DNA of 64,000 nucleotides from a virus. Location of the stretch: the IMG/VR virus record IMGVR_UViG_3300029914_000015, positions 1-64,000 of that record; one strand, written 5' to 3'. This document shows, piece after piece, positions 5,428 through 51,800 of this stretch. The translations under genes and the position numbers were made by a program. Position 1 is the first letter of the stretch. Every line of letters begins with the position of its first letter. The notes below the pieces were generated by a model, which saw only the letters and a program-made list of their open reading frames with translations, was not told the DNA's origin and made no database searches.

Positions 5428-8310
5428 TTATTCATTAAAATTAAACGAAGTATATCCATTTTCTTTTGTAACAGTTAATACACTATTACACTTACTTATC
5501 AATTCATCTTTATGACTAATAATCCAAACATCTCTGTTTTGCTGTCTAGACATATCTCTTAATAGTTTAATGGCTGATTCTGTTCCTGAAACATCAATGC
5601 CAGCATCAATCATTTCATCCAATCCCAAAAGATTAATTTTTTGATATAAGCTTTCGTGAACATCTCTGAAAGCAAATGATAGTCCCAATTGAAGTCTCGC
5701 CATTTCTCCGCGAGATAAATTTCCAGGGCTCAATTCTCTTCCCAATTCACTTATATTAACATCTAAATCATTTTGAAATATTACTGTATGCGGAAGTCCC
5801 AATGCTGTTAGATAATAATCCAATCGAATATTTAAATAACTAAGATTTTGTTCAATAATCTTCTTTCTAATAAATGAGTCTTTATTAGTCAATAACTTCA
5901 TTAAAAATTCTTGATGGTCAACCAAACTTGAAAAAGCATTCATTGTAGATAAATCAATTGTTTCAATCGCAGTATTTTGCATTTCTGAAATCTGATCTTT
6001 ATATGGGTCGATTTCATTATATTTTTGCTCATACTGTTGAATCAAAAGATTTAATTTATTTTTATGTTCATAAACGTCAGATAGTGCATTATATACTTTT
6101 TCTTTTGGTTTAATAACATTGGGAATTATACTAAAAGAAGCCAACACTTCATTTATTTTATCATACCATTGTTGAATATCTTTTTCGGTTTGATTATATT
6201 CTTTTTTTATCTTTAATAATAATTCTTTATGCACATCATCATGAATTTTTTGATGGCACGTTTGGCAACATTGATTTTCTAAACTAAGCAAATCGTCATT
6301 TAACTTCATTAAAATTTTATTTTCTTTATTTAATGAAGTTTCATAATGTTTTTTCTGTTGTTCCAATTGCTCTTTATTAGCAGCAGCAGTGTTATACTCA
6401 TCCCAACTTGAATGAATTTTTATTTCTTCTTCAATGTCAATTTTAGAAAGGAAATCAATAGATTTCTCCAATTTAATTAATTCTTCATTTTTAGAACGCT
6501 CCCACAACTTCTGCCTTCTAATTAAACTATTAATCTGATCTTGTATTCTCTTGTTGGCTTCTTGGACGCTTTTAATACGAATATCTTCTTTTAACACATC
6601 TTCTTTTGCAATTTTAATTTCTTCTTTTAATTTTTCAGCTTTTTCGCTGAGTAAAGTAATTCCCAACAACTGTTCAATAATGGTTCTTTGGTCACTAACT
6701 TTTTGAAATAAGAAAGGCGTTGTATAAGTATTTAATGCAACAATTTGACAAAACATATCATGGCTCATATTCAAAATTGTTTCAATTTCTTTTTGAGTTT
6801 CCCGACTATCTCCTTGTGATGTATCGTTCAAATCTAAAGCAATATCTTTTTCTTCTTTCTTAATTCCATTTTCAAAAAATTCAAATACTCTTGGTTTTAA
6901 GCCTCGATTAATTATATATTCTTTGCCATCAGATTCAAATTCAATGGTGACTAACATATTTTTACCATTGGTTTTATTAATGAGATGTTCTTTCTTAATA
7001 TTGGAAATGGGCCATGAAAATAATGCGTAACTCAATCCATTCATTATAGTAGTATTATGAGTTACAACAAAATTATCAGTAACATATAAATGCTCTGGAT
7101 CATCAACCATGATGCACTGACATTCTTTTTTGCCAATAAATTCAATACTTTTTATTTGTGATCGCAACTGTGTTTCATATTGATATTTTTTTGATAATCT
7201 TTCTCTTTTTCTGGGTAGAGATACGATGTTACGCATATTATAATATCTAATATTTACATTATAGGAATCTTTACAAGGAACACGTTTTCCTTTATAACTA
7301 TATGTTTTATTTTTTTTATGAAAAATTCTAGCTAACCCTCCAATACTACGAACAATATATGTAATATCATTTGCTAGTTGTCTGCTTGTTGTGCAAATAG
7401 AGAAGCCTCCATTTTTTCCAATATAACCATTAGTGTCCATTAATCCAGCAAGTAATTCTTCTTTTTGCCTTACACTAGAAGATTTATAAATTTCTGGTAT
7501 AAATTTAGTATCACTATGCGTTCCGCATAAATTCAATTGTTTTATAATTCTATTAAATTTATTTGGATTTTTTAAAACGTTACTTTCATAATTATTATTA
7601 CTAACAACTCTATAATCATATAAATTAGTCGAATTACCTTTATAACTTAACGAACAATTAAATTCAGAATTTAATTTTTCATTCATTTTATTTTTCATAA
7701 ATTCATCAGCAGTAGTAAAAGTAACACTAGATGATACTGATAATCCTGCATAACCTAAAGTAGCTCCTAATAACCATGGATCGATAGGTAAGCATATATC
7801 CGATATATTTTCTGGTTTAATTAATGGTGTGTAAATATAAGCTGAAGGATTTTTATTTTCATATTTTTTTAAATGTTCTATAATTTCGCCTGTAGTTAAA
7901 ATACTTTCTTTATTAATATATTTTTTTGATGTAAATTTATGGCTATAAGTTTTCCATAAATGATCATATGAAGCCTCAACTGTTCTTCCATCAACAAAAG
8001 TAATAAGATAAGTATCAAGCATCCCTTGACCATAAATACCTGTTACTTTAGCTTGTTTACCTTTTGGTGTTATAATCAAATCATTTAAACATAAATCTCC
8101 CATTTTTTTCCAACCAGATTTTGTTAAAATATTAGATGTCAATGGTTGCGCCTTGCCGCATCCATTACGGCTTCCAGAATCTTCTCCACCCATATCTAAA
8201 TTTTCTCCAAGAACCAATACTAACTCTTCTCGATTAAAATTTAATGTTTGCGGTGCATTGCCAATACTTAGAAAATTTCGTAATGTCAAATTTTTAACTA
8301 TTATTGCCAT
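5428..8310 (-). CDS. gp46: Recombination endonuclease large subunit gp46 (SbcC/Rad50-like) with in-frame intein
   Basis: 960 residues, of which 54-419 are an intein; the spliced protein is 594 residues, close to T4 gp46. The Walker A loop is split by the intein: GSRNGCGK, then TTIMNGLSYALF after it. Other parts are a Q-loop region (FCQIVALNTYT), long coiled coils, a zinc hook CQTC at 682-685, the ABC signature (PGNLSRGEMARLQLG) and Walker B (LLGLDEMIDAG). With gp47 it resects DNA ends for recombination-dependent replication and repair. Its ATG overlaps the TAA of the macro-like gene by one base, so the genes are translationally coupled. No ATPase activity is expected before splicing. Confidence 0.95.
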   Translation of the reverse strand: MAIIVKNLTLRNFLSIGNAPQTLNFNREELVLVLGENLDMGGEDSGSRNGCGKAQPLTSNILTKSGWKKMGDLCLNDLIITPKGKQAKVTGIYGQGMLDTYLITFVDGRTVEASYDHLWKTYSHKFTSKKYINKESILTTGEIIEHLKKYENKNPSAYIYTPLIKPENISDICLPIDPWLLGATLGYAGLSVSSSVTFTTADEFMKNKMNEKLNSEFNCSLSYKGNSTNLYDYRVVSNNNYESNVLKNPNKFNRIIKQLNLCGTHSDTKFIPEIYKSSSVRQKEELLAGLMDTNGYIGKNGGFSICTTSRQLANDITYIVRSIGGLARIFHKKNKTYSYKGKRVPCKDSYNVNIRYYNMRNIVSLPRKRERLSKKYQYETQLRSQIKSIEFIGKKECQCIMVDDPEHLYVTDNFVVTHNTTIMNGLSYALFSWPISNIKKEHLINKTNGKNMLVTIEFESDGKEYIINRGLKPRVFEFFENGIKKEEKDIALDLNDTSQGDSRETQKEIETILNMSHDMFCQIVALNTYTTPFLFQKVSDQRTIIEQLLGITLLSEKAEKLKEEIKIAKEDVLKEDIRIKSVQEANKRIQDQINSLIRRQKLWERSKNEELIKLEKSIDFLSKIDIEEEIKIHSSWDEYNTAAANKEQLEQQKKHYETSLNKENKILMKLNDDLLSLENQCCQTCHQKIHDDVHKELLLKIKKEYNQTEKDIQQWYDKINEVLASFSIIPNVIKPKEKVYNALSDVYEHKNKLNLLIQQYEQKYNEIDPYKDQISEMQNTAIETIDLSTMNAFSSLVDHQEFLMKLLTNKDSFIRKKIIEQNLSYLNIRLDYYLTALGLPHTVIFQNDLDVNISELGRELSPGNLSRGEMARLQLGLSFAFRDVHESLYQKINLLGLDEMIDAGIDVSGTESAIKLLRDMSRQQNRDVWIISHKDELISKCNSVLTVTKENGYTSFNFNE
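7054..8151 (-). mobile_element. Intein in the gp46 P-loop, class 3-like, with LAGLIDADG domain
   Basis: 366 residues (54-419 of the host protein) separate GCGK from TT of the Walker A motif. The intein starts with Ala rather than Cys or Ser, ends VVTHN, and is followed by Thr. It shows the W-C-T set of class 3 inteins as I know it: Trp two after the block B His (YDHLW, W119), Cys in block F (CQCIMVD, C399) and Thr before the final HN (T417). Splicing would start at the block F Cys. A LAGLIDADG pair is present, LLGATLGYAG and LLAGLMDTNG, but the first lacks the usual Asp (Tyr instead), so cutting activity may be lost. Confidence 0.88.
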
Positions 8311-8690
8311 TATTCCTCATTATCTTTTTCTTGAAAAGGTAACCATTCCAGCGGAAATATAACATTTTCAGATGCTCCTCTAAACATTGGAGCAATTTGA
8401 AAATGACTATATCCAGCCAATCCAGTACCAACCGCAGTCAATATAAAAGTATCTTCTGAATGATTTCTTGCATACTCTAAAAATATTGTAACATATTCTT
8501 TTATCTTATTCAACGGTAATGTTTTTATATATCTGTCTTTTGTTGGAATCGCATATGATCCACCATCAATTCCAACTCCTTGAATTCCATGTCCACAAAA
8601 TTGAATTGCTCCCCAATTTTTACGGGCTTCCAACGCAGCGCCTTTGCCATTTATTCCAGCTTCATTGCTTCCGTAAACAAAAACGTTCAT
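8310..8690 (-). CDS. Macro-domain-like phage protein (A1S_2505-type)
   Basis: 126 residues beginning MNVFVYGSNEAGINGKGAA, with GHGIQG, SYAIPTKD and FILTAVGTGLAGYSH. This matches the group often labelled A1S_2505 family phage non-structural protein, which looks like a short macro/ADP-ribose-binding type fold with glycine-rich loops. The biochemical role is not established to my knowledge. It has a good AAAGGAG site, sits between gp47 and gp46 and overlaps gp46 by one base, so it is co-expressed with the recombination nuclease. Given the ADP-ribosyltransferase-like genes elsewhere in the window, ADP-ribose handling is a tempting but unproven idea. Confidence 0.7.
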   Translation of the reverse strand: MNVFVYGSNEAGINGKGAALEARKNWGAIQFCGHGIQGVGIDGGSYAIPTKDRYIKTLPLNKIKEYVTIFLEYARNHSEDTFILTAVGTGLAGYSHFQIAPMFRGASENVIFPLEWLPFQEKDNEE

Positions 8691-8702
8691 TATATTACTC
8701 CT

Positions 8703-9722
8703 TTAAATCCCACGATATATTTCAAGTAACAAACTATTATCAAAAAACTGAGATTCTATAGCACCAAGTTGTGACTGAACAATTGTATCAACTGACTGAA
8801 AAGCTACATTACCTCCATGCGCCAAGTCTTCTGAAAAAGTACTTTTTTTCATTGATATTAATGACATTTCTCTTAACGAATATTCATCTACTAAAGTTTC
8901 TTTCAAATATGCAGCTTCTTCATATGACACTTCTGAATCTAACATTAATTTTATATAACCATTGATTGGTAAATATAATGATGGATCAACAACCAATTGG
9001 CTAATTTTAACTATTCTGTATTTTGGAGCTTTCGGCCAAGAAATATATTTCGGAGTTCCTCCATATGGCAAAATCATCATTCCTCGATCATCATCTCCAG
9101 AATCCCCAAAATTATGAGGGAATGCATTTCCTACATAATGAATATTATTCTGCTGCTGTCTCATATGAAAATGGCCAGAATAAACTTCTTCAATTTGTTT
9201 TAACTGATCAATTTTTATATCTCCAACATCTGGCATCGGCACTCGACTGTTCATCATAAATCCAGGTAATTCCAAATGTCCAAATATATATTTTGATCTA
9301 ATATTTTCTATTTTAGAAAAATCTTGCTCATTTAGCCAAGGTAGAAAAGTAACATCATTTTCAGTATATATATCATTAACAATTTCAATATTCGGAATAT
9401 GTTCTGCCCAAGCAATACTATGAATGGTTCTATTGGATTTATAGTAATTATCATGATTGCCAGTAAGAACAATTACTCTATCAAAAGCATCACTGAGCAA
9501 TCTTAATATTTGTAATCCATAATTTAACGAAATTAAATTTACATTATTTCTATTATTAAAAAAATCTCCCAAAAATATACAAATATCACAGTTTTCTTCG
9601 CTAGATTTTTGTATGAACCATTCAACAAAATTTTTACAATCTTCCAAATGAACAAGACTGTTTGTTTTTAGTCCAATATGCAAGTCAGTAAAAATTGCTG
9701 CTTTTTTAAATAAATTGGTCAT
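8703..9722 (-). CDS. gp47: Recombination endonuclease subunit gp47 (SbcD/Mre11-like)
   Basis: 339 residues from the ATG at 9722. Metallophosphoesterase motifs are in order: FTDLHIG (D, H), FLGDFFNNR (GD), LTGNHD, FGHLELPG and YSGHFHMRQ. These bind two metal ions for exo- and endonuclease action with gp46. The frame stays open upstream to 9806, but the added 28 residues overlie a host-type promoter and lack family similarity, so I use the inner start. That start falls six bases after a -10 hexamer, implying a leaderless message. The order gp47, macro-like protein, gp46 forms one minus-strand operon. Confidence 0.93.
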   Translation of the reverse strand: MTNLFKKAAIFTDLHIGLKTNSLVHLEDCKNFVEWFIQKSSEENCDICIFLGDFFNNRNNVNLISLNYGLQILRLLSDAFDRVIVLTGNHDNYYKSNRTIHSIAWAEHIPNIEIVNDIYTENDVTFLPWLNEQDFSKIENIRSKYIFGHLELPGFMMNSRVPMPDVGDIKIDQLKQIEEVYSGHFHMRQQQNNIHYVGNAFPHNFGDSGDDDRGMMILPYGGTPKYISWPKAPKYRIVKISQLVVDPSLYLPINGYIKLMLDSEVSYEEAAYLKETLVDEYSLREMSLISMKKSTFSEDLAHGGNVAFQSVDTIVQSQLGAIESQFFDNSLLLEIYRGI

Positions 9723-9728
9723 ACTTCG

Positions 9729-9757
9729 ATGATAAGTCCTTTGTAATGTTTTGTCAA
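9729..9757 (-). promoter_or_regulatory. Host sigma70-type promoter for gp47, leaderless
   Basis: On the minus strand TTGACA (9757-9752) and TATCAT (9734-9729) are separated by 17 bases. Six bases then precede the gp47 ATG at 9722, so transcription should start on the A of the start codon. Confidence 0.6.
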
Positions 9758-9827
9758 GATAAATAATGTCAGTCACGATGTTAGCCCATCCACTGACTCT
9801 AATCATTCATGGAGGAACAATCAGCTT

Positions 9828-10775
9828 ATGCGTATTTATACAACTACTGATTTCATATTATCGTCTATTTCTAAACATAATAATGAATTGCTTTCTTATG
9901 AAAAAACTATTTTCACTAGTAAAAACTCCAAAGTAATTATTACTTGCAAACTTCACGGCGATTTTGAGCAAATAGCAAAAATTCATTTGAAGGGGCATAG
10001 TTGCCCTCAGTGCGGCCATAATTATCGAGCCAATTTAAATAGATTAACCACTGAACATTTTATTAATGATGCTAATAAAATTCATAATTTTTTCTTTTCA
10101 TATGATAATTCTTTTTATATTGGTAGAAATCGCAAAATAACTATTACTTGTCCCTTTCATGGTGAGTTTAATCAAATGGCAGGAAATCATTTAAATGGCT
10201 TTGGGTGTCCCAGTTGTTCTGGTTGCAAAAAATTAACAACTGAAGAATTTGTAAGAAAAGCCAATATTAAACATAATTTTAAATTTGATTATAGCAAGTC
10301 AATTTATATAGGTGCTCATTCAAAAGTTATTATAAGTTGCCCAGAACATGGTGAGTTTACTCAGAAACCAAATTGTCATTTATCTGGCGCTGGCTGTCCT
10401 GTGTGTAAAGAATCAAAAGGAGAACGAGAAATTCGCATAAATCTTAAAGAATTAAAAATGAATTTCAAATACCAATACTCTTTTAAAAATTGCAAAAATA
10501 TAAAACCACTGCCATTTGATTTTGCATTATTTAATAATAAAAAATTAATTGGTCTAATAGAATATCAAGGTATACAGCATTATAAAGTAGGTTCTTTTGG
10601 TAGTAAATCAAAATCAATAGAAGATAAAATTAAAGATTTATATGAAATTCAATCTAGAGACTTAATTAAACTAAATTATTGCAAAACAAATAAAATTCCT
10701 CTTTTAATTATTCCTTATTGGAATCTGAGTAATATCAAAAATATTTTGTCTAATTATTCATATCCACCATCATAG
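9828..10775 (+). CDS. Zinc-repeat, Vsr-like free-standing endonuclease
   Basis: 315 residues, complete. Three zinc-type repeats (each with CxxHGxF then CPxC, for example CKLHGDF and CPQCG) are followed by the nuclease-like module: PFDFALF, IEYQGIQHY and IPLLIIPYWN. GGAGGAA precedes the ATG. It lies between the divergently placed gp47 and the convergent gp55, overlapping the gp55 end by 22 bases. Codons 3-5 (ATT TAT AC) carry, on the other strand, a perfect late promoter octamer at 9833-9840. Function as a homing-type mobile endonuclease is inferred from the motifs and the repeated copies in this window. Confidence 0.75.
   Translation: MRIYTTTDFILSSISKHNNELLSYEKTIFTSKNSKVIITCKLHGDFEQIAKIHLKGHSCPQCGHNYRANLNRLTTEHFINDANKIHNFFFSYDNSFYIGRNRKITITCPFHGEFNQMAGNHLNGFGCPSCSGCKKLTTEEFVRKANIKHNFKFDYSKSIYIGAHSKVIISCPEHGEFTQKPNCHLSGAGCPVCKESKGEREIRINLKELKMNFKYQYSFKNCKNIKPLPFDFALFNNKKLIGLIEYQGIQHYKVGSFGSKSKSIEDKIKDLYEIQSRDLIKLNYCKTNKIPLLIIPYWNLSNIKNILSNYSYPPS
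9833..9840 (-). promoter_or_regulatory. Late promoter TATAAATA on the minus strand inside the endonuclease start
   Basis: The complement of bases 6-13 of the endonuclease gene is TATAAATA. It points toward gp47 and would add late transcription to the gp47-macro-gp46 operon. The same placement recurs at 48771-48778. Confidence 0.6.
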
Positions 10776-20024: not shown

Positions 20025-23000
20025 ATGGCAACCACATCTACATTTCTTCCTCCATATTTAAATACGATACCCAATAAGAGATTCCTTAATGGTACTCTTG
20101 ATCTACTGACCAGCGCCCCTCAACTAGCAAGGTTTGATGGATTTATCGGTCGTCAATTTAATAATGGTAAATTATTGGAAGGATCATATCTATTAGAATC
20201 CACTGCGCCAAGGCAAAATTATCAATTAGAACCTGCATTTGTAACTTATGATTCAAATAATAACATTACAAATATTTCAAACTTCATTGATCTATTAAAT
20301 ACTTGCGCCAACAAAGAATCAATTACAAGCTCTTGGAATAGATTGCTTACATCTGGAGTGTATAGCTGGAAAGGATTTACAGATACAGATAAAATCATCA
20401 ATTATCAAAATTATTGTTGGATGGGAAAATCACTTGCAGCAAATAATGATTGGTATTGGACTAGCAATATTGCAATCAATGATATATCAACCAATGTTAT
20501 TGGAAAAACAAATTACACTACATTAAATGGAATAAAACTATTAAATGGCATGATTGTTTCATTTAATGATACTTCAGAACCTGCAATTGTTGAAGGTATT
20601 GGAGAAGAAATTATACTCATACCTTTATCAAATATAATTATTCCAACATTTGCAAATGATCAAAATAATCCACCAGATTATATAACCATTAATCGTTCTG
20701 CGGTAGATTTAAATTTATGGTCCAGAAGCAATTTATGGGTTCACAAAGACACTCTGAATGCAATTATTTCAATATTATCTATCACGAATAACTCTGAATT
20801 TCAATTTGCAGTTAGACCAATCTTAGAATTCATACCAATGGTATTATTTGGCCATGGAAAAGTAGGTTTAACTCCTGCAACTTATTATGATGCTTATACT
20901 CCTGATGCAATATCCATAATTCAAGGAACAACTAATTTTACAGTAGATGGATTTCAATTAAATGATGGAGATTCTGTAATATTTGCTGCTGATAAAAATC
21001 AAACAGTTAGAGATGCAATTTACGATGTAAATTTCGTCGATCCTTCTATTACTACTCAACTTTCAAGACTTTATCCAGTTCAAGCAGCAACTACATCCAA
21101 TATTATTGCTTTTGGATCACAAACTATAGATGGGTACATAACATCTGTTGGAGATAGAATTCTTGCTGTTAATCAATCTAATATTCCAAACGGAATTTAT
21201 ATTGTTACTAATGAAGATTGGAAACTAGCTCCTGACTTCATTTCAATTAATCCAAATGAAAATGAAATAGGGGTACTAGTGTTGTCAGGTCTTTCTTTGA
21301 AAGGAACTTATTTTATTTGGATTCCATTCACACACAATTTTACAATCGCTACCAATATTCCAGTAATTCAACTTACTCAAAGAGAAATACCAACAAATAA
21401 CAATTGTGTTCTTATAACCAGCGGAAATACTTATGTAGATAATACTGTTTCATGGGGAGGATCATACTGGAAAATTGATTCTCAAATTAAAACAGCAATA
21501 AATCAATCACCATTGTTTGATGTTTTTGATTTAAATAATATTAGTTTTAGTAATATATCTGTTTATCCTGAATCCAGTTTTGCTGGAAGCAAATTATTTT
21601 CTTACGAAATTGGGGTAGGCCCCAATGATCCAATTTTAGGTATGCCGCTTACTTACGGACCAATTGGAAATTTAAATGATGTGATATTTAATAACAATTA
21701 TTTTACTGATTCTTTTTCATTTACTACTTCTGAAAATGTTCCAGAAAGTATTGTGTCTGGAAGAGCACATATTATCGATGGTATAACCAAAATAGAAAAT
21801 GTTTATGACACATGGCAATATATTAATAGTAATTTAGAATTATATCAAAACTTGGTTGCAGTTGGGTCCAATGTAATTAATTTTACTGGAAAGTTACTTA
21901 TAAAAAGCACCCCAAATGCTTTTCAAACACAAGTTTTCGTTGATGGAATTCAACTTTCCTCTGATGAGTTTTCTGTGGCTGAATCTAACGGAATTGTTAC
22001 TGTCACAATATCATCATCAATAACAGCGACCAGTTTGATTTTTATAAAAATATTGTGCTCTACTCCTATTGCCAATGCATGGTATGACGTTCCTCCCTCA
22101 TTTGAATCAAATTCATTGGGAGAAAATTTACAATCATTTAGCATGAGTGATATAAGAAATCATGCAACAACTTCTAATATAAATTCAAATAATACTTCAG
22201 ATATAATAAATCTTCAATTAAATGAATTTCAAGGAACACCAGGAAGCATATTATTCAATGAATCATTAAGCATATTACCAACTTTATTATTAACTAATAA
22301 TAATTTTGATATTGATCAAGCCATTAAAGTTGCTGGAAATGCATATATTATATTCAAACAGAAATTAATTAATGTATTTTCTCAAATATCAAATATTCAA
22401 AATCTTAATAATAAGCAAGCAGTTGATCAAGCATTGCAACAATTAGCTCTTGGTTATACAAATTCTCAACCGTGGAATACTAGTGATATGTGTTTCTGGG
22501 GAGGAAATGTTCAAAATGTAACCATTTCTAGTATTAAAAAAGTTAATTTCAATTTACAACAAACTTATATTTGGGATCAACCAAATTATCTAGCACTACA
22601 AGTATATTTAAATTGCTCTCAGCTTATTAATAACATTGATTACTATACTGCTGGAAATATTTTGACCATCACTCATGCTCTTAATACTGGTGATAATTTA
22701 TCAATCTATGAAATTCCAAATACCACTGGTTCTTTTATTCCTGCAACACCCACCAAACTTGGATTATCTGCTGCGTATGTTCCGCAAATTTATGTAGATA
22801 ATACATATCAAATTCCTCGTAATGTTTTACAAGGTCACGATGGTAGCATAACTGAATGCTTCAATGATTATCGTGATAATCTTTTATTGGATTATGAAAT
22901 AAGAGTTTACAATAACTTAAAGGTTAATAATCAATTATTAACTGATATCATACAAACACATGTTCCTCAAAATGGTAGATTCAGAAATGAATTAGCATAT

Positions 23001-26000
23001 GATTTTTCTCCGTATTCTCCTTCTGAACAATTAACTATTTCTCAAAGAATGTTTTTTGAATGGGCAGCACAATATAATATAAATTATACCAATTTCTACG
23101 ATGCCAATAATATGTTTACTTGGAATTGGAGTAGTAGTTTAGATAAATTTTCAGATAGCCAACCATTATTGGGATACTGGCGCGGAATTTATAATTGGTT
23201 TTATGATAGCGAAAATCCAAATACTCGACCATGGGAAATGTTAAACATCTCTGTAAAACCAGCTTGGTGGGATTCAATTTATGGACCAGGCCCATATACT
23301 GGAGGAAACTTAATTCTATGGAACGATATTGCAAATGGAATTATAAGAAATCCATCAGGAATAACAACAAGCAGTTATGGTATTAGATATTATAATACCA
23401 ATTCAGTTTTATCAGTTATACCTGTTGATTCATATGGAATTCTATTAAATCCAAATCAAAGTATTATTGGGACTTATAATGATTCTGCTGCTGAAAATAG
23501 TTTTGTTTTTGGCGACAGCGGCCCTGTCGAAACTGCTTGGAAGCGCAGCAGTATATACCCATTTTCAAAGTTAAGATCAAAAATTTTACAAAATCCTTTG
23601 TTCATGCTTGGCACTTTATGGGATACCAATAATTATCTTCCAACAGTTGAATTAAATCAATTTAGATTTCAAAATGGATTATTGGGAAGCATTAAACAAG
23701 TTGCACTTAATAGTGTAGATAATAATGGATTGGCTCAAATAAATAGTATTCTTAATTATTCAATTGAATATCTTAGAAATGAAGGAAAAGATCCTTCTTT
23801 ACTAAGAACTGCCATCGATAATACTAATGTAAATCTTGTATATAATTTGGGGGGATATGCAGACGCAAATAATTTGACTGTGTTAGCAACTCCAAATAAC
23901 CCAAATGACGTTGGAGCTGCTGAATTAATTTCCAATGAGGATTACTCTCTTTTCCTAAATGAAAGTTCTCCAGTTGGTGTTCTAACATATAGTGGTATAA
24001 TAATTACAACGGCTGCAAATGGGCAAGGATATCAAATTTCTGGGTATGATAAGGGAAATCCATATTTTATGATATATCCTGCGCTATCATTTGTTTCTGG
24101 ACCAACTATTGGCATATCTCCAAATTTATTTACTTACCCCAAACAGTTTGATTCTAACCCTAGCATAGTCTCATATAACACTATCTTTGGGACACAACAA
24201 GAAGTAATTAATTTTATTGCTGGCTATGAACAATTTTTAATTTCCAATGGGCTAAATTTTAATACAAATCCAACTCAAGATAAAATTGATTATGCTGCTG
24301 CTGCTTTGCAATTTGTTAAGTGGAGTTTAGTAAATTGGAACAATTCTCAAAATATATCACTAATTATAAATCCAGCAGCTTCTATCATAGAATATGATGC
24401 ATTAACTGGAACATTACATGATTTAACTGATTCAACTTCTAGCTTATTATTGGATGTAAATGGAAACATTATTGATGGAAAATATTTAGATGTTTTTAGA
24501 GACATAAACACAGTAACTATTACTCATCAAGGTGGAGGAGTATTTTCTTGCATTCGTGCAAATATTATAAATTATGAACATAGATTTACAATTAACAATA
24601 TATCTTCGTTTAATGATACTATCTATGATCCAATAACTGGAAATAGACAATTGCGTTTGAAAATATCTGGACAAAAAACTGCAAATTGGACTGGTTCATT
24701 AGATTTTCCAGGATTTTTGATTTGCACAAATCAAGTCAATCTTTGGAATCCAAATCAAGATTATTTGATTGGGTCTATCGTTCAATGGAAAAATTCAAAT
24801 TATGTAGCTACAACAAATATTATTGGATCATCAACTTTTCAATATTCACAATTTAGTTTAATAACTACAAAATTTACAAATTCTATTTTACCAAATCTCT
24901 CATTAAAAGCGACTGATTATAGTCACGCGTATGATCCAAATTACCGTCCATATATTAATGATTTGGTTTCTCTTCGCAATAATACTATTGGTTATATTGA
25001 GAGAGATTGGCTTAATTCTTTGAATATTGATTTGTCAGCGCAATCTAATTTTTATAGAGGATGGATTAAAGAAAAAGGAACTCTAAATTCATTGAACAGT
25101 TATAGTAGAGGATCTACTCCTGGATTAAATACGCAAGTTATTCTTAATGAAGAATACGCTATGAAAGTTGGAGAGTATGGTTCAGATAGTAGAACTGGAT
25201 ATGGAGAAGTGAGTTTGCCGCCTACTGTAAATTCTCAAAATCCATTAGTTATTTCTTTTGTATCTTCTCCCAATTCTGAAGACACTACAACAACTCAAAT
25301 AGTTCCTTTTAATTTATATGAAAAATCTATAAATTGGACCAACGATTTTATTCAAAATTTTGGGAATTTAAAAGCAACCACTTCTTCATTTGAATCTGCT
25401 GGTCCTGTTATTCCTAGCAGATTAATAACTCAATCTTATCAAAATATTCCTGGTTTTGAAAAATCAGATGAAGATTCATTATTTTTTTCTAATGTGCAAA
25501 CTCTGATAAACAGCACATCTCAAAATAGTATTATAAAAATAGCTGAAAATAATGGTTCTTTTTGGTTAGAAACAAACCAAATATCTGCTGGCCCAAATCA
25601 GTGGGATATTATTACTTTTTCTCCTGCAATCACTAATATTTTATCTATAACTCAACTTAACCCACAAACATTAAGTTTTAATTTAACATCAAATATAAAT
25701 GCGATTATTAATAGCGTTATCATTATCGATCATGTTGATCCATCTGCAAACATATCAATACAAGGATCTTTTATAGTTTCAGATTATTTCTTGCAAAATG
25801 GTTACGCAAATTTAATTGTTGCCACTAGCAATAATATATTAAATGGAAATATTATCACTTATAATCCTGCATGGAATTCAACTTCGATCTATACAAGCAA
25901 AAGTTTGCGAAGCAATTCTATTGCAGAAAGCAATATTTCATTATCAGATACTACTCGATATGTGGATAAAGATAACATTACTTGGGCTGAATATGAATTA

Positions 26001-29000
26001 ATTGCTCCATATACTAATCAAATAACTTATCCAGATGTTGCTTTTCAATTACCAATTACGTCTGTTGCGTATGATGATATTAATCAACTATTATGGTCTG
26101 GAAAACCTTCAGCTATAGGAAATAATGGATTAGTAGAACTTAGACAATTGACTGAAAATATATCTTCCACTGATATTTTGGTATCTGTTATTGGTGGAAG
26201 TGTCTATGATATTGAAACTATTAGGCCAGATACTGCTCTTCTTGGATCAGCAGTAGTGTGCGCTAACGGATTTGCTGTAGCAACAGCAACCAGTTCTAAT
26301 GCTACTGCTAATATTAATAATATTGGTCAAATATATATTATCAAAAATAATACAAATGGATTATACCCAGAAATAACTCAAATTCTTAGCGCAGACGCTG
26401 TTCCAGCGATATATTTAAATGGTGCAAATTTTGGAAAGAATTTAGCCATAAGCGATGATGGAAATTGGCTGTATGTAGTTATTGATAATTTTGATGGTAC
26501 AGGACATGGGGGAATCAATGCGTATCAATTAAAAACTAACGCTAATGCTTCTTCATATACATTGGCAGAGCCTCCAAATAATACATTAATTAAAGTTACT
26601 ACACCAATCTTTAATGCTGATTCGTACAGCATTACTGTAACAGTGTCAGTTCCAAACGAAATACCAATTATATTAATACCTCATATGGATTATTCTGTTA
26701 ATCCTTTCGACCCAACTGATATTTTCTTATTTGGAAATCCAATTCCGAATATTGTGGGTACTACTGTTTCTGTCGAAGGTCTTTCTCAATATTATGCTTG
26801 GGTTGATACATTGGTAACTCCGTTGGGATCAAATACCAATTTCGGAGCGTCAATATCTTGTGATGCAACTGGAGAAGTAATAACAGTTGGAGCACCTGAT
26901 TATAATAATGGTGCAGTTATTATATACAGAAGAATTATTGAAAACTTATATAATCCGACAACTGGTGTATACACTCAAACATTTCCATCGCTAAATTCAT
27001 TAAAATTTGAGTTATCTCAAATTTTGAACGCACCAAATTCATATGATTCTCAATTTGGTGCTTCTGTTGCTATCCAAAATAATCAATTATTGGTGGGAAG
27101 TCCTAATAGCACAATAAATAATAAACTCAATAAAGGAGTTATATATTGCTATTCATTAGACACCCAAGTTCAAACTCAAAAAAATGTACCAGTAGCAAAT
27201 TTAACTTTTCCAATTTTACCTTTTAGAATTAATAATTGGATAACAACAAATACCTCTTTGGATATTTCATCATTACTAACAAATATAAATTCATTATCTA
27301 ATTATTCTGGAGTTACAGCGACTCTAATAAATTCAAATATTATATTGACTATAAATGAGACGTTGCATACTTCAGGTTTGACTCCAGCTTTAATTTTTTG
27401 GAATATAGATTCTCCATTATTTAATAATGGACCATTATTCAGTGAATTCACATTAACAAATACTTTATATTCAAATTCAATTAACTCCACCAATTTTGGT
27501 CAAAATATAAAATGGATTGCATCTGACTTATTCGGAGAAATTGAAAATATTGGATTTAATCAAGTAAATACCCCTGATTCCACTGATGGCACTTACTATG
27601 ATGGCGGAAATACTAATTTCAATGAAACAACCAATCAATATTCTCAGAATTTAAAAATTTATCAAGTTTTGAAATCCAATCGATCTTGGATACATTCAAA
27701 TTCTGATTTGTTGCAACCAATTGTTGTTTTTACAAAAACAATATCTGGTATAAACTATCCATCTATAATATATGCCGCAGATATTACAAATCTGTTTGTG
27801 ATAGATAGTAACAATCCAACAAAATCAGTTGAAGTATTTAACAATGAAAATTTTGCTCATGGCTGGACTGTAGCAACCGCTCAAGAATTTCCAATTGATT
27901 CTACTAGCATCAGTAGAGCATGGATTTATGATTCTATTACAAATATTAAACTTTCTGATTTAGAAATAGTTGATTTAAATGCTGGAATTTTACCAGGAGC
28001 AATTGCCAGCGATCTGGATTTTATTTGTGATAATGATCCTGCTAATTATAATACACAAAAATGGAATCCTGGAACATTATATAATATGGGAGATAGAGTT
28101 ATATACAATAACCAATTGTATGCAGCATTATTTTCTGGAAAAAGTGGCAGCATATTTAATTCTTCTTTATGGGAATTATTGAGTCTTCAAAAAACATTTG
28201 AAGCTTTTGGTCCATCTTTATGGGGATCGCACCAAAAAGGCATGACATGGTTCAAAACTAATAATTTAAAAACTGTAAATGCACAATTGGGAAATATATC
28301 TGAACGCGCTGCAAATTGGAATACTTGGTTTCCAAATTCAAATATTGAAGTTTATGAATGGGTTACAAGCTCTGTTCCTCCCAATTCATATATATCCAAT
28401 GACACAAATGGATTCATCATAGATATTAATTGCCCATATACATTTGATAATTCAACAAAAATATATGGCTTCTGGGTTTATAATAAATCCATACCTGGTT
28501 CTTTGCATACAGTTTCTACCAATCAGCTTATATCATCATTATCTGATATTCAAAATTCTGGAATTCCCATGATTACTGCTATTGATAATAATGTTATATC
28601 TATTTGGAATATCAATCAATTTATTTCCAATAATACAGCAATTCTCCACATAGATTATGTTGTGGCAAATGGAAATAATCAATTACATAATGAATTCGCC
28701 CTTATCAGCAATGATGGGAAAAAATCTTGGTATAAAACTCCAATCTATTCTAAATTCATTGATAGTTTGAGTGGCATGACTGATTTAAATCAATTAGTAC
28801 CAGATATTACTTTACCAATAAATCAGCAAACAGGAATATTAATAAATCCTCAACAATCTATTTTTGTTGATAGAATACAAGCAGCAAATATATATTTTAC
28901 TGTAATAAATCAGAACTTATCAAATTTGGCAGTCGCATCATCATCAGTTATTTCTTTATTAAGTGCATCTGATCCTATTCCAACTACTGGATTTTTGCAA

Positions 29001-32000
29001 CAAATTCCAGACAGAGATGTTTTGAATGAATTAAATATTAATGATTATCCAGAACATTATAAAATTTTATTGACTACTGATGATCTTCTATCTCCTGCTG
29101 GATGGTCAATAGTAGAAGCTATTAATGGAAATTGGGAATTTTTTAAAGTACAATTATATAATTTAACCAATAACTGGAAATATGCTGATTGGTTTTCTTC
29201 AAACTATGTAAAGTCTACTCCAATGTTTGTTTTGAATAATATTGGAGAACTACCAAGCATAGTATACAATATAAATGATATTATTCAGATTAATACCAAT
29301 GGAAATAACAATAAAATAATTTATAAAGTTCTTTCCAATGAGTTAAATCCTGATATTTTGGAGTTAAATCCTATATTTATTCAAAACGGAACCATTCAAT
29401 TTTTGTCGAATATTTATGATTTTGGATTTGACATTGACGCATTTGATACTACTCCTTTTGATGATGATCCATACATTGAACTTCGTATGATTACTCAAAT
29501 ACTAAATGATTATATTTTAACTGGAAGCAAAGATTTAACAACAGCAGCCGACGATGCATTTTATGCAGTGTTACAATATGTCATTCATGAAAATAAAAAT
29601 CTTGATTGGTTATTTAAAACTAGTTTTATTACTGTCAATTACATTAATAGAAATTTAAATATTCAAGGATCATATGAACCTGATAATCAATCTATTATTG
29701 AAGACTTTGTAAATGAATCTACTCCTTTTCATACTCGTATCAGAGCATTTTATGATACTTACACTGCCAATGATTATGGAAACATTGGAACTGTAGATTT
29801 TGATTTGCCAGCACAGTATGATGAAAATTATGCCAATATTGTATTAAATTACAGCGATAATGTAAAACCAAACGGATTATTGCAATTAAGTCAATTTGGC
29901 CAAAATGTTGGAATGGCTGCTGATTTTGATTCTTTTTATATTACATCAACTGGCATTCCTATTATTTCTCAAAGTAATGATAGTATATCACAAGATTGGA
30001 TTTTTGGATTTAAACAGCATGTGTATTCTGATTCTATTAATTTTAATACTGTTCCCAATAACATTGGGCCTATTGCTTCTGCAATAGACGGTGTGCCATT
30101 CTACAGCGCAAATAGTGGAATTATGGAAACATTATACCAAACTGGAAACTTAATAAATTCACAAACATTTACAATTAATACTGTATGGCTAGATCAACAA
30201 AATAATATAGATACTGGTATAGGGCTACCAAATGAATTGGGAATTTGCCAATATCTATCAGATCCTTATTTATTATATAATAAAAATGTTTTAACACATA
30301 GTCCATTACTAGGATATGCTTGGGACGGAGTTCCTATATATGGTCCTTATGGATATGTAGAAAATAATGGAGACGGCGGAATTTTTATTAACACTAGCAG
30401 TTATAAGTTATTAACTACTCCTAGATTAGATAAAACTGGATTTTCAATTGTTAATGGTTTGCAATTGGCAAATTATAATATGCCAACTGGAGAATATATT
30501 GAAGATTATGAATATGTTCCTGGTTTTGGTAGTCTTGATCAAAATAATGGAAGATATTGCACAACACCAGAATATCCATTAGGAACATATGCATACTTTA
30601 TTTCTGTCGATTCAATTTTTCTAAAACCAGTATATCCATATGTAATTGGGCCAACTTATTACGGAATTCCTTATGGATTAAAATATTCATATGTTAATGG
30701 TATTAGTACACCAGTTTATCAAAATGGAAAAGTTGCTCTGCCTCAAATTAATATAGCAAATAGTGCCAATTTCATTAGAACACCAGATGGTTCTGTTAGT
30801 TCTGATTCTTTAACTTTACAGAAACCAATTTATGCTCCTTGGAATGATAATTATATTAACAATAGTCAGTTGATTAGGCATCTCAATACCACAATAAGAT
30901 TTGATAGAGTTAATAAAGAAATTGAATATTTAACTGCAAACACATCTTATCCAGCCAAAGAAGTATTATTTAATTCAAATTCTGGAATATTTATGCAATC
31001 GTTAGTTGCCAATGCCAACAGCGCAAATATTATAGATGCAAATATTTGGGGAGTAGCAAATTCAATGGCAATTGCAACTTCTACAGCAATGAACCGAATA
31101 ACAGCAGAATATTCGCCGTCTTCCAACATGTTTGCCAATCAAGCAAGATTACTAATGGACGGTATTGATTATTCTGGTGTAATAGTAAAAAATGAAAATT
31201 TTGTTGATTCATATTCTGTTCCAACAGGTTCATTGTTTGATTTAGATGATTCTTTTGCAGCAAACACTTCATTAAATATTTCTTGGAGGCCAGGATTGAT
31301 TACCAGTTCTGCATTATCCAGCGAAGTTTATAGATTTGGTAACTCATCTGGAGCATTCAATACCAAAACTAAACAATATATATCTGCAAATTTAATGAGT
31401 GATGATATTTCTGCTCTGAGTATCAATTCTAGTAATTTTACATTGGAATTTTTCGTTAACTTCAGCAATTTAAATGCTGGCAATATCATGGTTATGGTAG
31501 ATACGAGAGATTATTACTATTCCCCATCTGGCTTAGTAATATATAAAAATAATGGCAATCTTTGTTTGGGATCAAATACTTCCATGCCATTGTTATCATA
31601 TAATTTACCACCATTACCACAAAATGAATGGCAATTTATTACTGCACAAGGATATACTACTAATATTAATGGAAATCTTTCTAGCAATCTATACATGTAT
31701 TTGAATGGGCAATTAATAAATAGTATAATGCAATATTACAATTTTTCCGATTCAAATTTAACTTTAGGTGCTGATGTTATTGGAGGGAATGTATGTTGTG
31801 GATATATGGACGAAATCAGATTAACCAAAAATATTAATCGTTATGATTATAATGCTATAAATATTAATGTTCCATCCAGTCCATTTCCAAGAGAGAATGA
31901 TCCATATCTTAATATAATAGATACTCCTTTGTTGTTTGGATTTGAATCTTTTAATAATGAAGGTCCAGCGTCAATAACATTTAATTCAATTAATTCGCAA

Positions 32001-32126
32001 ACATTAATTAATGATTTATCATGGAATACTAAAACTCTAGAGCTTGTAAACTATAATGCTGGAAATGTTATTGTAGATTCTTCTCTAATAAACAATCAAA
32101 ATTTTTCCGTAAAACTAAATCAATAG
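20025..32126 (+). CDS. Giant virion structural protein (baseplate/tail, gp7-position)
   Basis: 4033 residues in one frame. It stands where gp7 follows gp6. Landmarks: residues about 1140-1210 GDSGPVETAWKRSSIYPF; about 2140-2400 FG-GAP-type propeller repeats (NFGKNLAISDDGNW, NFGASISCDATGE, QFGASVAIQNN); about 3145 FDTTPFDDDPYIELR with NLDWLFKTSFI; about 3425 a YHYH-type motif HSPLLGYAWDGVPIYGPYG; about 3770-3960 a LamG/lectin-like beta-sandwich. Composition is very Asn/Ser/Ile-rich. I recognise segments from very large structural proteins next to gp6 in T4-like marine phages. The mix of propeller and lectin modules suggests an external, receptor-contacting role, but that is inference. Confidence 0.75.
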   Translation: MATTSTFLPPYLNTIPNKRFLNGTLDLLTSAPQLARFDGFIGRQFNNGKLLEGSYLLESTAPRQNYQLEPAFVTYDSNNNITNISNFIDLLNTCANKESITSSWNRLLTSGVYSWKGFTDTDKIINYQNYCWMGKSLAANNDWYWTSNIAINDISTNVIGKTNYTTLNGIKLLNGMIVSFNDTSEPAIVEGIGEEIILIPLSNIIIPTFANDQNNPPDYITINRSAVDLNLWSRSNLWVHKDTLNAIISILSITNNSEFQFAVRPILEFIPMVLFGHGKVGLTPATYYDAYTPDAISIIQGTTNFTVDGFQLNDGDSVIFAADKNQTVRDAIYDVNFVDPSITTQLSRLYPVQAATTSNIIAFGSQTIDGYITSVGDRILAVNQSNIPNGIYIVTNEDWKLAPDFISINPNENEIGVLVLSGLSLKGTYFIWIPFTHNFTIATNIPVIQLTQREIPTNNNCVLITSGNTYVDNTVSWGGSYWKIDSQIKTAINQSPLFDVFDLNNISFSNISVYPESSFAGSKLFSYEIGVGPNDPILGMPLTYGPIGNLNDVIFNNNYFTDSFSFTTSENVPESIVSGRAHIIDGITKIENVYDTWQYINSNLELYQNLVAVGSNVINFTGKLLIKSTPNAFQTQVFVDGIQLSSDEFSVAESNGIVTVTISSSITATSLIFIKILCSTPIANAWYDVPPSFESNSLGENLQSFSMSDIRNHATTSNINSNNTSDIINLQLNEFQGTPGSILFNESLSILPTLLLTNNNFDIDQAIKVAGNAYIIFKQKLINVFSQISNIQNLNNKQAVDQALQQLALGYTNSQPWNTSDMCFWGGNVQNVTISSIKKVNFNLQQTYIWDQPNYLALQVYLNCSQLINNIDYYTAGNILTITHALNTGDNLSIYEIPNTTGSFIPATPTKLGLSAAYVPQIYVDNTYQIPRNVLQGHDGSITECFNDYRDNLLLDYEIRVYNNLKVNNQLLTDIIQTHVPQNGRFRNELAYDFSPYSPSEQLTISQRMFFEWAAQYNINYTNFYDANNMFTWNWSSSLDKFSDSQPLLGYWRGIYNWFYDSENPNTRPWEMLNISVKPAWWDSIYGPGPYTGGNLILWNDIANGIIRNPSGITTSSYGIRYYNTNSVLSVIPVDSYGILLNPNQSIIGTYNDSAAENSFVFGDSGPVETAWKRSSIYPFSKLRSKILQNPLFMLGTLWDTNNYLPTVELNQFRFQNGLLGSIKQVALNSVDNNGLAQINSILNYSIEYLRNEGKDPSLLRTAIDNTNVNLVYNLGGYADANNLTVLATPNNPNDVGAAELISNEDYSLFLNESSPVGVLTYSGIIITTAANGQGYQISGYDKGNPYFMIYPALSFVSGPTIGISPNLFTYPKQFDSNPSIVSYNTIFGTQQEVINFIAGYEQFLISNGLNFNTNPTQDKIDYAAAALQFVKWSLVNWNNSQNISLIINPAASIIEYDALTGTLHDLTDSTSSLLLDVNGNIIDGKYLDVFRDINTVTITHQGGGVFSCIRANIINYEHRFTINNISSFNDTIYDPITGNRQLRLKISGQKTANWTGSLDFPGFLICTNQVNLWNPNQDYLIGSIVQWKNSNYVATTNIIGSSTFQYSQFSLITTKFTNSILPNLSLKATDYSHAYDPNYRPYINDLVSLRNNTIGYIERDWLNSLNIDLSAQSNFYRGWIKEKGTLNSLNSYSRGSTPGLNTQVILNEEYAMKVGEYGSDSRTGYGEVSLPPTVNSQNPLVISFVSSPNSEDTTTTQIVPFNLYEKSINWTNDFIQNFGNLKATTSSFESAGPVIPSRLITQSYQNIPGFEKSDEDSLFFSNVQTLINSTSQNSIIKIAENNGSFWLETNQISAGPNQWDIITFSPAITNILSITQLNPQTLSFNLTSNINAIINSVIIIDHVDPSANISIQGSFIVSDYFLQNGYANLIVATSNNILNGNIITYNPAWNSTSIYTSKSLRSNSIAESNISLSDTTRYVDKDNITWAEYELIAPYTNQITYPDVAFQLPITSVAYDDINQLLWSGKPSAIGNNGLVELRQLTENISSTDILVSVIGGSVYDIETIRPDTALLGSAVVCANGFAVATATSSNATANINNIGQIYIIKNNTNGLYPEITQILSADAVPAIYLNGANFGKNLAISDDGNWLYVVIDNFDGTGHGGINAYQLKTNANASSYTLAEPPNNTLIKVTTPIFNADSYSITVTVSVPNEIPIILIPHMDYSVNPFDPTDIFLFGNPIPNIVGTTVSVEGLSQYYAWVDTLVTPLGSNTNFGASISCDATGEVITVGAPDYNNGAVIIYRRIIENLYNPTTGVYTQTFPSLNSLKFELSQILNAPNSYDSQFGASVAIQNNQLLVGSPNSTINNKLNKGVIYCYSLDTQVQTQKNVPVANLTFPILPFRINNWITTNTSLDISSLLTNINSLSNYSGVTATLINSNIILTINETLHTSGLTPALIFWNIDSPLFNNGPLFSEFTLTNTLYSNSINSTNFGQNIKWIASDLFGEIENIGFNQVNTPDSTDGTYYDGGNTNFNETTNQYSQNLKIYQVLKSNRSWIHSNSDLLQPIVVFTKTISGINYPSIIYAADITNLFVIDSNNPTKSVEVFNNENFAHGWTVATAQEFPIDSTSISRAWIYDSITNIKLSDLEIVDLNAGILPGAIASDLDFICDNDPANYNTQKWNPGTLYNMGDRVIYNNQLYAALFSGKSGSIFNSSLWELLSLQKTFEAFGPSLWGSHQKGMTWFKTNNLKTVNAQLGNISERAANWNTWFPNSNIEVYEWVTSSVPPNSYISNDTNGFIIDINCPYTFDNSTKIYGFWVYNKSIPGSLHTVSTNQLISSLSDIQNSGIPMITAIDNNVISIWNINQFISNNTAILHIDYVVANGNNQLHNEFALISNDGKKSWYKTPIYSKFIDSLSGMTDLNQLVPDITLPINQQTGILINPQQSIFVDRIQAANIYFTVINQNLSNLAVASSSVISLLSASDPIPTTGFLQQIPDRDVLNELNINDYPEHYKILLTTDDLLSPAGWSIVEAINGNWEFFKVQLYNLTNNWKYADWFSSNYVKSTPMFVLNNIGELPSIVYNINDIIQINTNGNNNKIIYKVLSNELNPDILELNPIFIQNGTIQFLSNIYDFGFDIDAFDTTPFDDDPYIELRMITQILNDYILTGSKDLTTAADDAFYAVLQYVIHENKNLDWLFKTSFITVNYINRNLNIQGSYEPDNQSIIEDFVNESTPFHTRIRAFYDTYTANDYGNIGTVDFDLPAQYDENYANIVLNYSDNVKPNGLLQLSQFGQNVGMAADFDSFYITSTGIPIISQSNDSISQDWIFGFKQHVYSDSINFNTVPNNIGPIASAIDGVPFYSANSGIMETLYQTGNLINSQTFTINTVWLDQQNNIDTGIGLPNELGICQYLSDPYLLYNKNVLTHSPLLGYAWDGVPIYGPYGYVENNGDGGIFINTSSYKLLTTPRLDKTGFSIVNGLQLANYNMPTGEYIEDYEYVPGFGSLDQNNGRYCTTPEYPLGTYAYFISVDSIFLKPVYPYVIGPTYYGIPYGLKYSYVNGISTPVYQNGKVALPQINIANSANFIRTPDGSVSSDSLTLQKPIYAPWNDNYINNSQLIRHLNTTIRFDRVNKEIEYLTANTSYPAKEVLFNSNSGIFMQSLVANANSANIIDANIWGVANSMAIATSTAMNRITAEYSPSSNMFANQARLLMDGIDYSGVIVKNENFVDSYSVPTGSLFDLDDSFAANTSLNISWRPGLITSSALSSEVYRFGNSSGAFNTKTKQYISANLMSDDISALSINSSNFTLEFFVNFSNLNAGNIMVMVDTRDYYYSPSGLVIYKNNGNLCLGSNTSMPLLSYNLPPLPQNEWQFITAQGYTTNINGNLSSNLYMYLNGQLINSIMQYYNFSDSNLTLGADVIGGNVCCGYMDEIRLTKNINRYDYNAININVPSSPFPRENDPYLNIIDTPLLFGFESFNNEGPASITFNSINSQTLINDLSWNTKTLELVNYNAGNVIVDSSLINNQNFSVKLNQ

Positions 32127-48876: not shown

Positions 48877-51800
48877 ATGAGATTACAAAATTTGTTTGAA
48901 GAAAAAATAAAACAAACAACTGCAACAATTTTTAGCGGTGGGTTTCACCCATTCCTTCCACAACATTTATATTGCTGGGAATATTTGATTTCAAAATTTC
49001 CAAATGCACATCATTATATAGCTTCCACTAATAATATAAGTGAGCGACCATTTTCATTTAAGCAAAAACAATTTTTAGCAGTGCAAGCTGGCATACCTAA
49101 AAATGGATTTGTACAAGTAACAAGTCCTTATAAAGCATTGGAGATAACTAGTAAATATGATTCAAACAATACTATTGTTATATTTGGTTTAAGTGAAAAA
49201 GATGCAGAAAGACTCGGACCAACGATAAAGAAAGATGGGACCCTGTCATTTTTACTACCATATCCTGGGCCTTCTACTCCACTAGAAACTTTGAATAAAC
49301 ATGCATATTATGTAATTATTCCTGTCCATAAGTATAGAGTTTTGGGACAAGAGATAACCTCTGCTTCTCAAATAAGAAAGATGTATACTTCTTCTAATGA
49401 AAGCGATAGATATACTATTATTCGAGAATTATATCCAAATTCTATGAAAGTTGGAGAGATTAAAAAAATATTTGATCAAGTTTTGCTTGCTCCAATAAAT
49501 GAAGATATATATGACGTGATTTATAGACCAAAAAACGTTTATAATATAGAAGCGAATGAATATCCAGAATTTATGTTAGATGGGGATGTTCAACGTATGA
49601 TATATGATTTGCACCAACAGGAAGAGATTGATGCTGGCTCTGATATTTGGGATAGAATGGATAGTGTCTGGTATAAGTTACAAAATGTTTCTATAAAAAA
49701 ATTAGATAACATAAATGATTTAGATGAAGATGATGACCAATATTCTGATGAAATAACTCCTTTTCCTCCAATAGTATTAACAAAAAGAGGGGAAATATTA
49801 GATGGATTTCATAGGACTATTTCTGCTAAAATTCGTGGTGATAAAACAATTAGAGCATATGTTCCTTGCAAAAAACCAATTAATGAATCTAAAGCTGGAT
49901 TAGAATATAAATTAAAACTTGGAAACAAAAAATCTGTAATAGATTCAAGTGGCTGGCTATTTCCAGATAAAACTTTTGTTCCACTTGTTCCAGGAACAAC
50001 TCACGAAACAATGGCTACAAGATTGGGATATAATGGTTATGAAGGAATATATAAAATTGGATGTGTAAGAGTTTCCCGTCCAATTTATGCTCCGGGTAAA
50101 ATTTATATAGAAACAATACAAAAATTGAGTGATAGTACTTATAAGCTAATTATGAATATTATTCATAGAATAAAAGTGGATGTTAAAATAGATGTTACTG
50201 TTGGATCAGGTAATGGATATTTTCAACATTATAAATGGGATTTCAAAGATAGACAATTGCATAAAACAAATTTTTATGAGTCAGTTATAAATGAAGAACC
50301 TGATTTTAATTATACAAAATTTAATAATAGAGATGAAGAGCTTTCAAGATTAAAATTTGATTATTCAGTAATACCCAGTAATAATGACGGAATTGGTGGA
50401 TTTTGGATAATTGTAAATAACTCCTCTGGTGTTAGTGTGGCAGATATTGATTTGGTGGAAGTTAATTCAAAAACATTAGTAATTTCTTTTATTAGAATTA
50501 ATTTAAAATGGAAAGGTACTGGACTTGGGCAAATTCTGTATGACAAAGCGATTAAAAAAGCCAAACAATTAGGATATAAATATTTTCGATCAGATACTGA
50601 TAGATCAGCGGCTGCTGAAAAAGCGTGGAAAAGATTGGCAGCAAGATATACAGTTAAGTACAAAGAAGGCAAAGAATTTAATAAAGGGTATTATGAAATT
50701 GATCTAAGTAAAGTTCAATTAAAAGAATCATTTGATTATTCCTATAGAGCTAAATTATTTCAACTTAGACCACAAATGATTAAAGCTGCACAAAAAATAT
50801 ATGATAAATGGGAAGGAGGAGAAGTTGGTTTGTGTGATAGTATTGCAGAGTCAATTTCTGATTGTGTATTAAAAAATATAAAGAATATTGATTCATACGT
50901 GGTTGGCCATAAAAATCCAAAATTGCATGAACTTCATTTTTGGGTAAGAGTAGATTTTAATAATGGAGAAAAATATTATGATATTGACTTACCATTTGGA
51001 AAATATGAAAGATATGATAATAAAAAACATTATTTTGTAAAAATACCAAATGTAAAATTTCAATTAAATGATTTATTAATATATCAATCATCTTTAAATT
51101 ATAATAAAGCTCCTTGGGAAATAAGAAATAGTTATACTCCACATAAATCAGATAGTTATTTTATCAGCGAATCTATTGCACAAGAAGTTATAAAAGTTGG
51201 TAAAAGCAATGATGAAATTATAAAATTAATCAAAGAAGCTACAAAATATAAATTATATGTTCCTACATTTACAGCGCAAAAAGAATTTGGTTGGATATTA
51301 CAAACAGGAAATAAAGGTAAAATAAGTAAAATGGCTATGATGTATGTTAACAACATGCCTGTCGCTTGGATCATTTATTGGAAACATGGAAGTTTTATGT
51401 CTGACTCTAATCCAAGAACAGAAAATGACAAATATTGGAGATTTACTAAAAAAGAATTTAGAAATATAGGTTATTATCATAAATTAAAAAAAGCTTTATG
51501 GAATATAATTAATGAGGCACCAGATTTTGGCTACAAAAGTTTTAATGATAGAGATGAAGATATAAGCAAATTAAAGTGGGAAATTGATAAAAGACCATTT
51601 AAAGATTGGAATAGTGATGAGGAACACCTAGGAATAATAATTAGGGCAAGAAATCCAGAAACTAATGAAGTAGAAGGTTTTATAACTTCTAATGAGATAA
51701 CCAAGAAAACATTAAAAATTTCAAGAAGTCAATTAACATCTAATCATAATTGGCAATCGACTGGTCTTGGACAAATGTTATATGATAAACTTATTAACGT

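Follow-up and report, generated by a model that had tools for sequence, protein, structure and literature searches.

A class 3 intein with a most likely dead homing endonuclease divides the P-loop of a phage gp46/SbcC-like protein

The window analyzed here, a 64,000-base stretch of viral DNA with a GC content of 30%, is part of an 80,003-base IMG/VR virus record, which may itself be a fragment. Window coordinates below refer to the minus strand unless marked (+). An ORF at 5428-8310 encodes 960 amino acids and has a match to phrog_77, a family of SbcC-like phage proteins (E 1e-76). The gene for the SbcD-like partner, gp47, is found nearby (8703..9806; phrog_100, E 1.6e-65; PF00149). Judged from the phrog_77 match and the gp47 neighbor, the ORF encodes a gp46/SbcC-like (SbcC/Rad50-like) phage protein. 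A late sigma factor is also encoded near gp46 (phrog_12791, E 3.4e-63), and the order sigma-gp47-gp46 recurs in Pseudomonas phage Paride. Between gp46 and gp47 lies a gene for a 126-aa protein (8310-8690) of the function-unknown phage family phrog_2072 (E 5.2e-36). P0003, a free-standing homing-endonuclease-like gene (9828..10775, +; phrog_559, phrog_9084), occupies the interval between gp47 and the late sigma factor, and its end overlaps the sigma-factor ORF by 22 bases. P0003 carries treble-clef zinc repeats (DUF4379, DUF723) and has matches in 939 of 50,697 phage records. Two further IMG/VR records share 9,098 bp with the window at 100% identity.

Reading the gp46 ORF residue by residue, we found a 366-residue intein at 7054..8151 (ORF residues 54-419), running from AQPLTS to VVTHN, exactly where the earlier sequence-only reading had placed it. 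The intein divides the Walker A motif between Lys and Thr. The N-extein (8152..8310) has 53 residues and ends in SRNGCGK, which is Walker A as far as Lys; the C-extein (5428..7053), SbcC-like by its phrog_77 match, begins TTIMNGLS with the remaining P-loop, so that the +1 residue is Thr (ORF T420). The proposed insertion between GCGK and TT was confirmed from the ORF and from the nearest non-self gp46 loci, all 79 of which are uninterrupted at the junction and read GTGK then T, a count that does not estimate site occupancy because the set was ranked by uninterrupted matches. When the 80,003-base record was searched with the intein family model described below, the window intein was the sole match and no second intein was found.

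In the structure model described below, residues 1-72 (7936..8151) and 328-366 (7054..7170) make up the N- and C-parts of the splicing (HINT) domain. The N-part begins with Ala1 (8149-8151, codon GCG) and contains His64-Leu65-Trp66, with His64 at 7960-7962 and Trp66 (B:12; ORF W119) at 7954-7956. In the C-part are Cys344 (7120-7122; ORF C397), Cys346 (F:4; 7114-7116; ORF C399), Thr364 (G:5; 7060-7062; ORF T417), and the C-terminal His365-Asn366 (7054-7059). The residues singled out by the sequence-only reading, namely, Ala1, the Trp after the block B His, the block F Cys, the Thr before HN, and Thr+1, are thus all present.

The published signature of class 3 inteins, as given in PMC5222942, is Trp B:12, Cys F:4, and Thr G:5. 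The window intein has W66, C346, and T364 at these positions, together with H64, the terminal His-Asn, and Thr+1. Class 3 inteins can dispense with Cys, Ser, or Thr at position 1, and this one reads as Ala there. We aligned a hand-picked set of 59 sequences including the window's own (alignment A2), made up of 20 gp46-family P-loop inteins and 39 from other genes. Cys346, Thr364, and HN are invariant in this alignment (59/59 each), Trp B:12 is found in 58 rows, and Ala1 is found in 55. The family model built from it matches the window intein at E 4.6e-132, although the window sequence is itself one of the 59 rows of the model. Family matches (E 0.01 or better) occur in 806 of 50,697 phage records. 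Among IMG/VR candidates, 143 of 145 stretches were confirmed as members of the family, and the best 80 of the 143 were taken; of 231 candidates from species genomes, 187 passed confirmation, and the best 80 of these were used.

An AlphaFold2 model computed on alignment A2 (mean pLDDT 93.8, pTM 0.93) is predicted to have the HINT fold of a class 3 intein. By overall fold it matches the class 3 Msm DnaB intein 6bs8 (Z 20.1, rmsd 1.4 over 123 residues) and the Mch DnaB1 intein 6rix/6riy (Z 19.2), and these mycobacterial inteins share with it the Trp-Cys-Thr triplet as well as the splicing-domain fold. The Msm DnaBi1 intein also has a P-loop host site. Unlike the window intein, with its full, probably dead endonuclease domain, DnaBi1 is described as a mini-intein lacking an endonuclease (PMC6195587). 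Another class 3 comparison, the TerL1-a inteins of mycobacteriophages, is set apart by its description, the host there being a terminase rather than gp46. The model matches PI-SceI chains at Z up to 27.3, and PI-SceI has the same arrangement of HINT and LAGLIDADG domains, although it belongs to a different splicing class. With the sequence signature, the family alignment, and the fold match in agreement, the assignment to class 3 proposed by the sequence-only reading is well supported: the element in the gp46 P-loop is a class 3 intein, splicing competent as far as its sequence tells.

From the signature residues, splicing would follow the class 3 course. Cys346 would attack the N-terminal Lys-Ala junction, the acyl chain would be transferred from Cys346 to Thr+1, Asn366 would cyclize, and the exteins would join, restoring a GCGKTT P-loop. 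A precursor without a continuous P-loop should not use ATP before splicing.

The two parts of the splicing domain flank a LAGLIDADG homing-endonuclease domain (residues 116-327; 7171..7806), recognized by Pfam, by the model, and by its match to PI-SceI; the boundaries are our choice from the alignment and the model. Hom_end and LAGLIDADG_3 both score above the Pfam cut-off. The model predicts two LAGLIDADG helices, at residues 125-134 and 227-241, in the pseudo-twofold fold of such enzymes, and it matches I-Tsp061I (Z 14.1). An active LAGLIDADG enzyme should have a catalytic Asp ending each helix, and here the helices are predicted to end at Tyr134 and Asn241. PI-SceI keeps D218 and D326, which we take to be its catalytic residues. 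In the first motif, LLGATLGYAG, the earlier observation of Tyr in place of Asp held up: MAFFT sets Tyr134 (LGYAG; 7750..7752) in the Asp column. HMMER gives Tyr134 a gap and places Ala135 opposite D218 of PI-SceI; since neither residue is acidic, the acid of motif 1 is lost under either alignment. The second motif, AGLMDTNG, had been supposed to keep its Asp, and the alignments with PI-SceI and with the relatives rule this out for the catalytic residue. In a phmmer alignment, LIDSDG of PI-SceI lies opposite LMDTNG, with D326 facing N241 and D324 facing D239 (PI-SceI numbered along the printed chain), and most relatives read DTDG or DSDG here. The Asp that is kept, D239, is the noncatalytic one, and the catalytic position is occupied by Asn241 (7429..7431). 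The earlier suggestion of a defective homing domain therefore stands, with both active-site acids absent, but its statement that the second motif keeps Asp fails at the catalytic position.

The catalytic Asp is kept in 54 of the 59 rows at each of the two columns; at least one is missing in seven sequences (the window, L014, L026, L240, L254, L265, and L272), and both are missing in three (the window, L254, and L265). According to PMC8966425, the Block C and Block E LAGLIDADG helices carry the acidic catalytic residues, and the PhoVMA intein has lost its active-site Asp, retains the fold, and does not cut DNA. Our model matches PhoVMA (7qst) at Z 19.4, and the two inteins are alike in having lost both LAGLIDADG catalytic positions while keeping the endonuclease fold. 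They differ in that the second LAGLIDADG helix is shortened in PhoVMA and of full length in our model. In addition, PhoVMA is an archaeal VMA intein whose structure was solved as a C1A variant, so that its position 1 is the nucleophile Cys, whereas the window intein is of class 3 and from a phage (PMC8966425). Because neither catalytic residue is preserved, although the fold is otherwise intact, the homing endonuclease of the window intein is most likely dead, as published for PhoVMA.

We then considered inteins at the same site in other phages. A search with an exact DNA pattern encoding NGxGK|AQP gave 32 stretches; inteins with other starts are missed because the pattern fixes AQP. These sort into 20 distinct complete gp46-family inteins, including that of the window and L258, whose gp46 match is weak (E 6e-6); four duplicates (L250, L251, L263, and L269); one intein in another P-loop protein (L247); three incomplete sequences (L244, L246, and L256); and four stretches that are not inteins (L241, L243, L248, and L252). 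A junction search of cultured phages added a 21st gp46 P-loop intein, of 331 aa and at the same site, in ORF 539 of Salicola phage SCTP-2. The SCTP-2 gp46 gene (L354 2352-5117; MF360958 434885-437650) is annotated "hypothetical protein," with its class 3 intein unannotated. All 21 gp46 inteins have the Cys, the Thr, the His-Asn, and Ala1, and 20 have the Trp, which is Phe in L261. Catalytic Asp residues are lost in five of the 21, and both are lost in four of these five, the residues at the two positions being Tyr and Asn in the window, Asn and Asn in L254, Cys and Arg in L265, and Arg and Ile in SCTP-2; L240 has lost the second Asp only. Large parts of the endonuclease domain are gone from L240 (298 aa) and L254 (269 aa). 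The SCTP-2 intein resembles that of the window in insertion site, in the Trp-Cys-Thr triplet, and in the loss of both catalytic Asp residues, but its endonuclease motifs are far more eroded. Class 3 inteins of the gp46 P-loop form a family that is widespread in phages, with members at different stages of the homing cycle, and the window intein is ordinary in kind rather than unique.

In a quick tree of the 59 sequences, in which many forks are weak, the gp46 inteins cluster without forming a single clade: the tree requires 8 label changes, compared to a mean of 16.8 after shuffling, and none of 500 shuffles gave a value as low. By tree path, the nearest to the window are the gp46 inteins L249 and L264, followed by L006, from another P-loop protein. 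The simplest reading is a history of moves between like P-loop sites together with shared descent. Most probably the window intein came in by homing, at a time when its endonuclease was active. Loss of both catalytic aspartates, now Tyr134 and Asn241, with the fold kept, would then have ended both cutting and homing. We infer that the intein now persists because its precise loss is rare and because gp46 can be made only if it splices. It is, on sequence and model, very probably a class 3 intein at the Lys-Thr junction of the gp46 P-loop that once homed, has a dead endonuclease, and now persists as a member of a homing-cycle family; it was probably stranded when homing activity was lost.

A dead domain might be expected to decay, and we compared end branches on a fixed topology of 25 sequences, with the LAGLIDADG motifs left out of the endonuclease columns. 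For the window, the end branch measures 1.01 in the endonuclease columns and 0.60 in the splicing columns, a ratio of 1.67, with end branches of such length being near saturation. Among 21 relatives with intact motifs the median ratio is 1.45, and nine have a ratio at or above that of the window. Taken alone, the window's endonuclease branch is long, being equaled or exceeded by only one of the 21. For the shortened L254, the ratio is 9.17. Because the window ratio is not unusually high for a dead domain, either recent loss of the active site or continued constraint is indicated; the window intein retains the domain but not the active site, and the data fit both. The ordinary ratio is also compatible with a domain retained for a function, as a scaffold or DNA-binding module needed for splicing or for gp46 control, or with a domain retained because the neighboring free-standing endonuclease moves the intein in trans. 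We consider such retention unlikely, and prefer a dead domain stranded in a persisting intein.

The sequence-only reading had further suggested that splicing could act as a switch on recombination. An inactive precursor is no evidence of this, because it is expected of any P-loop intein, and we found no supporting signal. In one form of the idea, an oxidation-sensitive disulfide of Cys346 with Cys344 or with the Cys at position -3 would hold gp46 inactive until conditions become reducing. There is a precedent in the M. smegmatis class 3 P-loop intein DnaBi1, in which oxidation of the block F Cys is inhibitory, the disulfide partner being Cys48 (PMC6195587). The window has a second Cys two residues ahead of the nucleophile and a Cys at -3 (GCGK), where the 79 nearest empty gp46 loci all have Thr. 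However, in the alignment to 6bs8, Thr47 takes the place of the DnaBi1 partner Cys48, so that this known class 3 redox partner is missing, and Cys344 is not conserved among the aligned inteins. Cys at -3 occurs in only three of 20 gp46 inteins, Val or Thr being common (L247, a non-gp46 row, was excluded), and the empty gp46 of Salmonella phage Munch has Val. We also considered whether the -3 residue goes with occupancy (Cys or Val at occupied sites, Thr at empty ones) and rejected the association as confounded: given how rare Cys and how common Val and Thr are among the inteins, at least part of it reflects clade, and the empty Munch gene has Val. A search for empty relatives in the Val clade with a C-extein query gave only two loci, each being the query itself at 100% identity. 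We regard a redox switch as quite improbable, with Cys(-3) and Cys344 being leads only.

Movement of the dead intein in trans is possible but unsupported. P0003 would cut intein-free gp47/gp46 DNA, and the intein would be coconverted during repair, as has a precedent in T4 mobE and the defunct I-TevIII, named in the reference list of PMC2988022. In phage Munch, a homologue of P0003 is located a short way downstream of gp46, and in the intein-bearing L005 a related gene immediately precedes gp47. Munch gp46 lacks such an intein, however, and P0003 matches were present at only three of the 103 gp46 loci searched, one of them from the window's own phage. In other phages, the interval between the sigma factor and gp47 is occupied by unrelated genes and by genes that we read from their sequence as GIY-YIG-like. 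Since relatives carry varied inserts beside gp47, P0003 is not specific evidence, and we rejected a homing hot spot at this position as an argument for it. On balance, this route is very improbable. As an observation in its own right, the gap is an insertion hot spot, with differing extra genes in L005 (2024-2815) and L007 (994-2742) and varied genes before gp47 in L113, L134, L137, L139, L140, and L148.

The endonuclease might instead still work, by nicking or with other residues substituting for the lost acids. The modeled fold is intact, and apart from the lost acids the domain shows the conservation seen in intact relatives; both metal-binding acids are absent, though, and in PhoVMA their loss accompanies an absence of cutting (PMC8966425), which makes this highly improbable. 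That this is a class 1 intein whose position 1 was altered by a sequence error is hardly credible, because three records are identical and relatives share Ala1 (55/59) and Cys F:4 (59/59).

The preferred reading, a class 3 intein stranded with a dead endonuclease, adds gp46/SbcC to the P-loop ATPases known to us as class 3 intein hosts. The literature covered on inteins and on phage recombination proteins, chiefly open-access papers, yielded no report of a gp46 intein. At one site in one phage gene, the series presents active-looking endonucleases, a double catalytic loss in an apparently intact fold (the window), and shortened forms (L240 and L254). With this series, the homing cycle can be tested stage by stage in phages, among them SCTP-2, which is cultured and deposited.

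Three other ORFs of the window, all on the plus strand, have domain matches. A 1,005-aa multidomain protein (48877-51894) contains an acetyltransferase match, and in another multidomain protein (55625-59086) NUDIX, DUF4116, and GP88 match separate stretches. A 4,033-aa ORF (20025-32126) has a YHYH domain, a CBM_5_12 carbohydrate-binding match, and an FG-GAP match below the cut-off; our guess is that it encodes a giant surface or adhesion protein.
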